Source: Gemmatimonadota bacterium
GTDB taxonomy: Bacteria; Latescibacterota; UBA2968
Assembly: GCA_009838845.1 (NCBI GenBank)
Contig: VXRD01000014.1
Coordinates: 1 to 64,000, forward strand
Direction of reading: 5' to 3'
DNA length: 64,000 nucleotides
In this document: piece by piece, positions 5,784-13,177 of the stretch
Layout: every line of letters begins with the position of its first letter
How positions within the stretch are numbered: position 1 is the first letter of the stretch
Translations under genes and position numbers: made by a program
Notes under the pieces: generated by a model
The model's input: the letters and a program-made list of their open reading frames with translations, nothing else
What the model was told of the DNA's origin: nothing
The model's database searches: none

Positions 5784-6551
5784 ATGGGCGTGAACATCCC
5801 TCGAAGGACCTGTTCTGCTAATTGGCCGGTATCACTATCACTCTCGCTACGCTCTGGTTTAATTCTGTTGCTCGTTGCGGTGCTCACCAACAGAATATGG
5901 ATCTACTCCCATATCGTTTTTCGTCCCCATATATCTTCCCATACAGCATTGGACTGGATCGTAGAAGTAGGGGTTGTAGGTCTCATAACCGTCGCAATGG
6001 GGGTTGCTGTACATTTTATTACAGGTGTGTCAATCACTAAAATTTTGGGTCTCCAAAAGTCCGATTCAAAAGACTTGCTCAAGTGGGGTTATGTTGCGCT
6101 TGCAGCAACTTCATTCAATCTGGCTTTGGAGATTCCTTCAGGTTTTGGACCACAGTATGAATCTGAGCTTTGGTTCATATTCATACGCATGATCAGATCT
6201 GTTCTTTTGATTCCATTTTACGAGGAACTCATTTATCGGTTTCTGATTTACGGTATAATAAGACCCCGGTTTGGTCGGTGGCCTGCAGCGATTATATCAA
6301 CGGTCATCTTTGTCTTCATTCACCAGTCAGTTCAGCGGGCATTGGTAGCATATTCCCTGACGATTGTCTTTCTCTTTTTCACTCATTTTTCTTTTGGTCT
6401 TTTAGCTGCCTATTTGTACGAAACCAGACGCACGCTTCTGCCATGTGTTGTAATCCATGCAGCAGTAAACCTGACCTATCACAGTGCGCCTCTGATTGGC
6501 TACCTCATAGGGGGAACAATAGCCAAGACAGAGCCGCCATTGCTGCCATGA
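5784..6551 (+). CDS. CPBP-family intramembrane metalloprotease (second copy)
   Basis: A 255-residue multi-pass membrane protein with the CPBP signature: E147-E148 and R152 in FYEELIYRF, H180 in FVFIHQS and H225 in VVIHAAVN. It is only distantly similar to the copy at 2192-2944, so it is probably not a recent duplicate. It starts 25 bases after small protein B with a GAGAGGA site. Its stop overlaps the start of the TPR protein (ATGA at 6548-6551), which implies translational coupling. A role in processing, or in immunity to, the small proteins is inferred from context. Confidence 0.87.
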   Translation: MGVNIPRRTCSANWPVSLSLSLRSGLILLLVAVLTNRIWIYSHIVFRPHISSHTALDWIVEVGVVGLITVAMGVAVHFITGVSITKILGLQKSDSKDLLKWGYVALAATSFNLALEIPSGFGPQYESELWFIFIRMIRSVLLIPFYEELIYRFLIYGIIRPRFGRWPAAIISTVIFVFIHQSVQRALVAYSLTIVFLFFTHFSFGLLAAYLYETRRTLLPCVVIHAAVNLTYHSAPLIGYLIGGTIAKTEPPLLP

Positions 6552-10695: not shown

Positions 10696-10723
10696 TTGAC
10701 AAACGTGGTTTTTGTGCTATACA
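10696..10723 (+). promoter_or_regulatory. Sigma70-like promoter for the HEPN/PIN/antitoxin operon
   Basis: TTGACA (10696-10701), a 16-base spacer and TATACA (10718-10723). Predicted transcription begins near 10730, about 35 bases before the ATG at 10765 that carries GGAGG. The good promoter argues that the longer frame from 10696 is not the real start. Confidence 0.6.
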
Positions 10724-10764: not shown

Positions 10765-12555
10765 ATGAGCATTGATTTAGACCGAAAACGACTATCGCAA
10801 GCCAAGATGCTGGATTGGTTGCGACGCGATCTAAAAATGACTGAGATGGTCACCGTGTATCTATCTGATCACCGAGAGTCCCACAATTACGGCATTTATT
10901 GTGCTTTAATTCCATTGGATGGGATTGATCAAGTATTTTCTTCTCCGAGTTGGGACCTCCGTTGGGGTGGTGGTATGCCTGATGCATCTGTGTCTTATGA
11001 AGGCGGAGAAGAGAGAGTTGAATATCTCCGGTATGGAGGTACAACAAATAGAGTGGAACCTTTGGTTTTGGGGCGCGAATTCTCTGGTTTATATGATGCC
11101 TATATGGAAATATCTGAGGAGTTTCGCCTTTTTCACAATCTATATCACGACAGAAAGAAGGATAAATACATCAAGATTGATGACGAAGGTAATGAAGATG
11201 TAGTAGCTATTGTTGAGGCCAATCAGGTCCAGATAAGGCTCAAGGAGATTCGTCAGTTTTTGGCGATTAAGGAAATGTATTTATCAATTCAATTCGATTG
11301 TAGGGAGTACTCGGAGTACTCTCTGGAAGAACTTGGGCTTAAGGAAGGTGGAGGTGATCAGAGGGATGATCTTATATGTTGGGGGCATCACTATGGAGAT
11401 TTTGGCGTCTCCGGTAGCCACCAAGCATTTAGTCGGCTGCTGGGCAAGCGACTTATTAAACCTCTGCCGAAATCCAAAAGCGGGTTATGGGGATTTTCTG
11501 AGAAACCGGAAGAAGAGCATGTGGAATTTATCATTGATGTCGATGAGGACGGAGATGAAATTATCCATACATCTGATCCGGATGCTCTGGCAAATTATTT
11601 TGGAGCAAACCCCGACGCGCCCCATTATCTGACCCCTGTGCATTTTCGCAAACAGGTTTTAGACAAGTATTACCATGAGTCCAGTAAATATACCGTAGAG
11701 GATTCGCTTCTGCGCTGTGGTGACCTGTGGTGCATGGAGATTGACAGCTATCACGACGACAAAATCTGTGCGTGGTTAGGCGATCTGGGGCGAGACCTCC
11801 CTTATACAGAACAGCTATACTGGCGGTCTTACAATATCCCGCCCGAAGGCGGTGTAAGTAAGACCTATTTTAAGCGTCAAATCTTGAATCAGTCTGCAGA
11901 GTCAGATCGACCTGAGCACTTGTTTAGAGAACGTTATCAAAAGTTGCAAGATGCCTGTCAAGAATATCTGGGTTGGCAGTTGTTGTTGCCGCTGGGCACT
12001 GGTGACGAATACCATTTCCAAGGCTTGAGGATTCCAGCCACCGATGAGCAAAGCGATTTTGATGCGTTGGTTTTGAGTCTCACAAAGATACTCATTGATT
12101 CCCTAAACGAGAGGCGTCTAAACACGCTCATTTCTAAAGATCAAAAGGCAAAACTTAAAGGTAGCATTGCACGTCTGGAAGCTGTGCTTAGTGCCCATGA
12201 TGTTGAAGGTGCTGCCGAGCGTATCGCCTTTCTGCGGAAACTTCAGAGTTTACGTTCCAGTAGTGCCGCGCATCGCAAGGGTAACAAATATCGAAAAATT
12301 GCTAGGGACTTCGGCGTTGAGAGCCAGCATTTGCGCGATGTGTTCACCGGGATTATCTGGCGGGCATTAGACGTGCTGGATTATTTCATCTTTCTTGTGC
12401 GAAGTGGCCCTATTAATCCTGAAATCATTGAAAAAAATAAAATAGAAGAAGGCTACGCAATTCTCGATGAGATGGTTGGATTTGCGAAATCTGACCGAAC
12501 CGACGGGTCTGTCAATCATGATGAAAGCATCTATGAATTGCGATCAAAACCATGA
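10765..12555 (+). CDS. Large protein of unknown family with a C-terminal HEPN-like region
   Basis: A 596-residue soluble protein that I do not recognise as a named family. The central part (about 300-400) has a dense run of aromatic and acidic residues (LWCMEID, CAWLGDLGRDLPY, YWRSYNIPP) that looks conserved-domain-like. The C-terminal 160 residues are helical and contain R497-x5-H503 (RSSSAAH), fitting the R-x4-6-H motif of HEPN ribonucleases. The ATG at 10765 has GGAGG upstream. Its stop overlaps the PIN gene start as ATGA. Its place at the head of a PIN/antitoxin unit suggests an RNA-targeting or defence role, which is inferred. It is AT-richer than its neighbours. Confidence 0.7.
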   Translation: MSIDLDRKRLSQAKMLDWLRRDLKMTEMVTVYLSDHRESHNYGIYCALIPLDGIDQVFSSPSWDLRWGGGMPDASVSYEGGEERVEYLRYGGTTNRVEPLVLGREFSGLYDAYMEISEEFRLFHNLYHDRKKDKYIKIDDEGNEDVVAIVEANQVQIRLKEIRQFLAIKEMYLSIQFDCREYSEYSLEELGLKEGGGDQRDDLICWGHHYGDFGVSGSHQAFSRLLGKRLIKPLPKSKSGLWGFSEKPEEEHVEFIIDVDEDGDEIIHTSDPDALANYFGANPDAPHYLTPVHFRKQVLDKYYHESSKYTVEDSLLRCGDLWCMEIDSYHDDKICAWLGDLGRDLPYTEQLYWRSYNIPPEGGVSKTYFKRQILNQSAESDRPEHLFRERYQKLQDACQEYLGWQLLLPLGTGDEYHFQGLRIPATDEQSDFDALVLSLTKILIDSLNERRLNTLISKDQKAKLKGSIARLEAVLSAHDVEGAAERIAFLRKLQSLRSSSAAHRKGNKYRKIARDFGVESQHLRDVFTGIIWRALDVLDYFIFLVRSGPINPEIIEKNKIEEGYAILDEMVGFAKSDRTDGSVNHDESIYELRSKP

Positions 12556-12974
12556 TTTTTGTCGATAGCGGTGCCTGGATTGCTCTTACCAATCAAAGAG
12601 ATCGGAATCACACCGACGCTGTGACGATTTACGCGGACTTAAAACGGCAAAGAGCGCGATTTTTTACGACTGATTATGTGCTTGATGAAACCATAACTCG
12701 GCTCAGATATGACGTGAGCCACTCAGTAGCAGTACAGTTTCTCGATTTTATTGAACGCGCTGAAAAAATAGATGGTTTAACTGTCGCGGAAATTGATAAG
12801 ACCCTATTTCAAGAAGCCAAGCGGCTTTTTCGGCAATACGATTCCGCAAAGTTATCATTTACAGATTGCACCAGTTTCGCGGTTTGTCAGAAGCATAACA
12901 TTTCTGAGACCTATGCTTTTGATGAGCATTTTGCGATGATGGGGATAACTGTGCTCAAAACGGTTGAACAATGA
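12552..12974 (+). CDS. PIN-domain ribonuclease (VapC-like toxin)
   Basis: A 140-residue PIN domain with its acidic metal-binding set: D5 (FVDSGAW), E46 (VLDETIT), D105 (SFTDCTS) and D124 (AFDEHF). PIN toxins cleave tRNA, rRNA or mRNA. The start overlaps the upstream stop (ATGA) and the stop overlaps the next start (ATGA), so the three genes are coupled. The toxin precedes the antitoxin, the reverse of the usual vapBC order. Confidence 0.88.
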   Translation: MIFVDSGAWIALTNQRDRNHTDAVTIYADLKRQRARFFTTDYVLDETITRLRYDVSHSVAVQFLDFIERAEKIDGLTVAEIDKTLFQEAKRLFRQYDSAKLSFTDCTSFAVCQKHNISETYAFDEHFAMMGITVLKTVEQ

Positions 12975-13177
12975 TGCTCAATATCAAACCAAAATATGTC
13001 GTGGATGAAAAGGGGCGGAAGACCGCAGTCGTACTGTCAATCAAAGATTATTGCGCTTTGATGCAACGACTTGAGGATTTAGAAGACGCTTTAGATCTGG
13101 ATCGGGCGGTTGAATCGGCAACGGGCTTTCGGCCATACTCTGAAATACGAGCAGAATTACAAGTAGATTCTTGTTGA
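12971..13177 (+). CDS. Phd/YefM- or RelB-like antitoxin
   Basis: A 68-residue protein with a beta-strand start (PKYVVDEKGRKTAVVLSIKDY) typical of Phd/YefM-type antitoxins, followed by an acidic helix (LMQRLEDLEDALDLDRAVE). It would bind DNA through its N-terminus and neutralise the PIN protein through the helix. It starts inside the last codon of the PIN gene (ATGATG at 12971). The call rests on size, composition and position. Confidence 0.7.
   Translation: MMLNIKPKYVVDEKGRKTAVVLSIKDYCALMQRLEDLEDALDLDRAVESATGFRPYSEIRAELQVDSC

Follow-up and report, generated by a model that had tools for sequence, protein, structure and literature searches.

A three-gene locus under purifying selection

Why does a gene for a large protein overlap the gene for a PIN ribonuclease, and which protein of such a locus would hold the ribonuclease in check? 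The question is raised by a locus in the 64,000-nucleotide stretch of DNA analyzed here (the window). An earlier note on the window had described three open reading frames joined by 4-base ATGA junctions, and the coordinates and both overlaps (12552-12555 between P0001 and P0002, 12971-12974 between P0002 and P0003) were borne out. The locus comprises the following features.

10696..10723, + strand: near-consensus sigma-70-type promoter (TTGACA at 10696-10701, TATACA at 10718-10723), resident at the site
10765..12555, + strand: P0001 gene, 596 aa; defense-type core with a fused VapB toxin-docking tail
12037..12408, + strand: likely HEPN-type domain of P0001, residues 425-548; invariant R/H, AF2 all-alpha model, Abi_C profile match
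12253-12255 and 12271-12273, + strand: codons of R497 and H503, within the HEPN-type domain
12418..12552, + strand: VapB-type toxin-docking tail of P0001, residues ~552-596 (..EEGYAILDEMVGFAKSDRTDGSVNHDESIYELRSKP); motif common to small antitoxins before homologous PINs
12552..12974, + strand: P0002 gene, 140 aa; predicted VapC20-like PIN ribonuclease toxin with acids D5, E46, D105 and D124
12971..13177, + strand: P0003 gene, 68 aa; orphan RelB/Phd-type antitoxin, accessory and probably outside the PIN module

Orthologs of all three genes are present in related genomes. Candidatus Latescibacterota MAGs are the closest relatives with a name, and the window accordingly derives from a Latescibacterota-like genome. 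Compared with the window, dN/dS was 0.11-0.28 for the P0001 core (0.09-0.19 in its HEPN region) and 0.02-0.22 for the tail; the PIN gave 0.08-0.23 and P0003 0.15-0.27. Since orthologs exist and dN/dS is ~0.02-0.28 in every part, the three open reading frames are real genes, and all parts of the locus are kept under purifying selection. The P0001 fusion, with all of its parts, is conserved across two phyla.

A VapC20-like PIN toxin preceded by a VapB-type tail

P0002 clearly matches the Pfam PIN profile (E 8e-12), and its closest solved relative is VapC20 of M. tuberculosis (E 1.1e-11). The four acids D5, E46, D105 and D124 are conserved, leaving the active site intact; with the PIN profile match and the catalytic acids in place, the earlier assignment of the second gene as a PIN ribonuclease holds as a prediction, and P0002 classes as a VapC. 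VapC20 cuts 23S rRNA in the sarcin-ricin loop. In two other phyla, the PIN was sought in nine genomes and in one genome, samples that are uninformative on generality.

Genes for homologous PINs in other bacteria nearly always have the gene of a small antitoxin immediately before them. The N-terminal halves of these antitoxins vary and appear by inspection to be ribbon-helix-helix, AbrB-like or Phd-like (one gave a weak RHH profile match), but most share a C-terminal motif with the tail of P0001, for example DGSINHDHYLYG. When a profile of the fused tails was used for scoring, ten small VapB-like antitoxins, all encoded upstream of homologous PINs, outscored every one of 1513 control C-termini; for three of the ten, E was ~1e-8 or better. 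The HD..[LIVY] motif occurs in 10 of 14 antitoxins compared to 3 of the 1513 control C-termini. The closest stand-alone tail belongs to a 75-aa protein of G031, with its C-terminal 35 residues aligning to the tail of P0001. Searching the class and phylum for the tail yielded one further small antitoxin only, in G013.

P0001 is thus a fusion, in which residues 1-548 represent an undescribed family and residues ~552-596 a VapB toxin-docking tail that ends directly before the overlapping PIN gene. Because P0001 has 596 residues and profile searches found no DNA-binding family in it, it is a carrier of a VapB tail and not itself a VapB, which would be small. The tail is very probably the antitoxin of the PIN, in canonical antitoxin-first order, which it would bind and neutralize. 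At one locus (L091) the tail is present and the PIN absent. In G102, we also observed a small VapB-like open reading frame ending in DASVNHDDVIYELQSKK (L021 reverse strand, ~6000-6500 after reversal), followed closely, in a different frame, by what may be the decayed start of a PIN.

A likely HEPN-type domain in the P0001 core

The earlier note had proposed a profile search of the 596-residue protein; searched against Pfam, NCBIfam, PADLOC and PDB sequences, P0001 matched nothing and so falls in no known family. Members of the core family likewise gave no meaningful match in Pfam or PADLOC, and no Pfam HEPN profile matches any of them. The R-x5-H motif noted in the helical C-terminal region lies exactly as placed, at R497 and H503. 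Both residues, whose conservation the earlier note had made a test of its reading, are invariant across the 15 aligned members of the family, as they are in distant homologs that have no toxin partner. The spacing between them is 4-6 in the aligned homologs, as in the Rx4-6H motif of the HEPN superfamily.

An AF2 model of residues 425-548 consists of helices only (pLDDT 84.4, pTM 0.79), as expected of the all-alpha HEPN fold, and in it the longest central helix holds R497, with H503 following directly after that helix. The confident model came from this segment; full-length P0001, modeled with 4 sequences, reached a pLDDT of 35. In a profile comparison this domain aligned to Abi_C, which we take to be a HEPN family of abortive-infection proteins, with a score of 28.3, a pairwise E of 3e-4 and a probability of 38%, with R and H in register. 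None of 300 column shuffles reached this match, and circular alignment shifts were useless as a control because the local match stays intact under them. Profile comparison showed no kinship of the core to ApeA. Foldseek searches against PDB and BFVD returned nothing significant and no PDB match with E<1; the noise-level matches include a weak one to HepS (9oij, TM 0.34) and 2q00. Hence the HEPN-like character of the C-terminus is upheld by the R/H pair, the all-alpha model and the Abi_C link, but not by any significant Foldseek HEPN match or Pfam match. We regard the assignment of the domain as HEPN as likely but remote, since Foldseek gave no fold confirmation, and by profile comparison the core appears remotely related to Abi_C.

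The core family and its defense context

Full-length homologs of P0001 number seven, namely those of the window, G003, G004/L002, G005/L003, G008, G046 and L004, the last a Caldilineaceae MAG. All seven carry residues 549-596 followed by an overlapping PIN gene. About 12 further homologs lack the tail, ending at about residue 547, and none of these has an adjacent PIN. They are found on Pseudomonas, Rhodococcus, Streptomyces, Fusobacteria, Halobacterium, Agrobacterium and Moraxella plasmids, in G119, as a paralog in G002 and in E. coli prophages. The earlier note had tied the first gene to its PIN and antitoxin neighbors; for the core this did not hold, as it is mostly without a PIN and occurs by itself outside this lineage. 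Only core proteins that bear the tail have a PIN joined to them (7/7), and the tail therefore explains the exception.

The suggested defense context was corroborated, with the core in type I RM operons, a Type ISP neighborhood, a GMT island and a P2-like prophage. The distant core paralog of G002 (L020:4458-14690) sits in a type I RM operon in the order HsdR, core, HsdS, HsdM and overlaps HsdS, and a Fusobacteria plasmid carries a core homolog among type I RM genes. A homolog on a Pseudomonas syringae plasmid (L058:3161-7821) is preceded by gmtY, a VPA1269-family gene and gmtX of the gamma-mobile-trio, consistent with it being cargo of a gamma-mobile-trio island. Among 5426 E. coli genomes, 11 have a tail-less core homolog in a P2-like prophage, where it is the single gene separating V from S; P2 itself keeps fun in this interval. 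A second defense-enriched locus of P2 was described by Vassallo et al. as holding fun and three of their systems (PMC9519451). The E. coli representative is as follows.

L117:6001-7632 (NZ_CP010236.1), also L095:5001-6632: E. coli homolog WP_052318713.1, unannotated defense candidate

The phage collection that we searched contained no match, and scans of viral contigs with P0001 and the Rhodococcus homolog found nothing, whereas a scan with the Pseudomonas homolog found one contig. Within an incomplete coverage of the literature, we found no paper naming the plasmid or E. coli homologs by accession. The core is an undescribed defense-associated family that reaches E. coli prophages, and it probably has an antiviral and RNase function.

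The tail on other defense proteins and exchange of the cargo

The VapB tail is also grafted onto other proteins. In G034 (C234 contig end; L022 reverse strand, 13-725 after reversal), a Type ISP-like enzyme, of which the contig end leaves just the last part visible, ends in a VapB tail and its gene overlaps that of a PIN by ATGA. In G002, at the chromosomal site that the cassette occupies in the window (L024:1113-10841), the gene order is Type ISP enzyme, SIR2 protein, NACHT protein (a PADLOC PDC-M54A match) and a DUF2806 protein that ends in a VapB tail. Comparison of the G002 and G004 DNA revealed homology up to and including the Type ISP gene, a stretch with none, and homology again from tail residue ~552. 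By this alignment, the cargo between the Type ISP gene and the tail has been exchanged in G002 in such a way that translation still runs in frame into the tail.

G002 has since lost its PIN gene to an in-frame deletion, which fuses codon 5 of that gene to the gene for the 68-aa protein; in G008 the PIN carries frame breaks and the tail is retained. Loss of the toxin with retention of the antitoxin part is as expected of a toxin-antitoxin pair. In the part of the literature that we covered, no restriction or HEPN defense protein is described as carrying a fused type II antitoxin tail.

A promoter that belongs to the site

The cassette is flanked by a metallo-beta-lactamase gene and a zinc-phospholipase-C-like gene. 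The earlier note had credited it with its own promoter, and a near-consensus promoter is indeed present, but it belongs to the site. An identical TTGACAAAC..TATACAT stretch is found at the empty sites L088, L089 and L090 and also in L024, L026 and L027. Genomes with the empty site and this promoter are G001, G006 and G007. As the promoter is also found at cassette-free sites, the cassette borrows it. At this site G004 has Type ISP, core-tail and PIN genes and G005 a Type ISP remnant; a Type ISP gene also adjoins the cassette in L004, besides being fused to the tail in G034. No Type ISP gene was found beside the window cassette or elsewhere in the window's own genome.

A proposed coupling of immunity to a suicide toxin

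Taken as a whole, P0001 is quite probably a HEPN-type antiviral protein that doubles as the VapC antitoxin, with the toxin as a backup suicide layer. A defense protein takes the place of the DNA-binding half of VapB, and the C-terminal 45 residues are the toxin-binding tail, which would dock on the VapC20-like PIN from the overlapping gene and block its ribonuclease; the promoter resident at the site would serve all genes. Were P0001 destroyed, shut off or engaged by a phage, or the cassette lost, the PIN toxin would be set free and would cleave an essential RNA (to go by its closest relative, the sarcin-ricin loop of 23S rRNA), bringing the cell to a halt. We infer, at only just short of even chances, that the toxin is released on attack, as opposed to being passively neutralized or serving addiction.

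The VapB tail and the VapC20-like toxin may also form a portable socket, which would make any defense protein plugged into it the antitoxin of the toxin; we put this forward tentatively, as somewhat short of even. The HEPN protein, the Type ISP enzyme or the DUF2806 protein behind SIR2/NACHT would be interchangeable cargo, and the RNA-cutting toxin would be freed when immunity is lost, inhibited or activated.

The main rival to the coupled scheme is a passive fusion with PIN addiction, and the sequence data do not separate the two. Here, defense genes would have landed beside vapBC and become fused to vapB in frame through deletions; the tail would do no more than silence the PIN, with no signaling, and the PIN would be an addiction module that retains the defense gene. 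This is a serious possibility, although on balance a doubtful one. The toxin is easily lost while the rest stays, as the G002 deletion and the G008 frame breaks attest, the core stands alone elsewhere and addiction is a known role of toxin-antitoxin systems. However, the tail is present on at least two, probably three, unrelated defense proteins, the cargo was exchanged exactly at the tail boundary and every part of the fusion is conserved across two phyla. Several unrelated fusions together with exchange at the tail boundary suggest more than one accident.

It is less probable, indeed unlikely, that the core is no longer an effector and that P0001 serves chiefly as a large antitoxin or as a regulator, its helical domain binding nucleic acid or partners and the PIN being the sole nuclease. 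P0001 does occupy the antitoxin position, and RNase activity of the core is a prediction for which the fold search returned no confirmed HEPN match. Against this stand the invariance of R497/H503 even where distant homologs have no toxin partner and the low dN/dS of the HEPN region (~0.1-0.2).

Relation to known systems

In the coupled scheme, the locus would combine parts that are already known (HEPN proteins, VapBC and RM islands), as is the restraint of toxins by immune proteins (PrrC; PMC3506569). It resembles VapBC of the VapC20 branch in its PIN toxin with four conserved acids, its overlapping antitoxin-first gene order and its VapB-type C-terminal tail, and differs from it in that a ~548-residue defense protein takes the place of the VapB DNA-binding half and no autoregulatory domain was recognized in P0001. 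PrrC with its type I restriction system EcoprrI is similar to the proposed scheme, with a latent RNase toxin silenced by an immunity protein at a restriction-linked locus (PMC3506569); for the cassette, a restriction link is seen in some genomes (G004, L004, G005 and G034) and not in the window's own. In PrrC/EcoprrI, separate subunits restrain the toxin by protein-protein contact. Here the immunity protein itself carries a type II antitoxin tail, and a VapC PIN takes the place of the PrrC anticodon nuclease.

Like P0001, Abi_C/AbiJ-type HEPN proteins and ApeA have a large N-terminal part and a C-terminal helical domain with an invariant R..H. HEPN families occur in R-M operons and prophages (PMC3710099), contexts that the core shares, but unlike the known HEPN Abi proteins the core is undetected by Pfam, NCBIfam and PADLOC and bears an antitoxin tail in this lineage. 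In the Panacea network, antitoxin parts are likewise exchanged modularly and toxin-antitoxin pairs are evolutionarily linked to phage defense (PMC10440598); there one antitoxin domain meets many toxins, whereas here one toxin and tail meet several defense proteins.

Coupling of immune systems to suicide toxins was proposed in 2012 by Makarova and colleagues, who noted that immunity loci seem to be without the antitoxins of typical toxin-antitoxin systems and that immune proteins may therefore restrain the toxins (PMC3506569). A defense protein with an antitoxin tail such as P0001 would tie immunity to a built-in suicide switch, and the portable socket, if true, would be a genetically explicit form of that proposal. 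With the antitoxin tail on P0001 and on two other defense-operon proteins, the coupling idea becomes testable with a few plasmids, and the presence of the core family in E. coli prophages makes it assayable in standard strains.

The third gene

P0003 matches a RelB-like profile (E 1e-7). Its homologs with 74-75% identity lie, with a 4-base overlap, before a ParE-family toxin gene, and no such gene was found next to P0003. P0003 persists without the PIN in G002. Nor is it the fixed third member of a unit, as the earlier note had it, being absent after the PIN in G008, G046 and L004. Its antitoxin-like, Phd/RelB-type nature was upheld, and the proposed pairing with the PIN in reversed order was rejected. 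That the PIN is restrained by P0003 and simply follows an unrelated HEPN gene is highly improbable despite the ATGA overlap of the two genes and the antitoxin-like character of P0003, given the ParE-family partners of its close homologs, its absence beside those three PINs and the HD-motif antitoxin found upstream of related PINs. The notion of an RNA-based defense or abortive-infection unit accordingly keeps its HEPN-type domain, its PIN and its defense context and loses the pairing of PIN and P0003. From its homologs, P0003 is best read as an orphan ParE-type antitoxin, one that accompanies the cassette within this genus.
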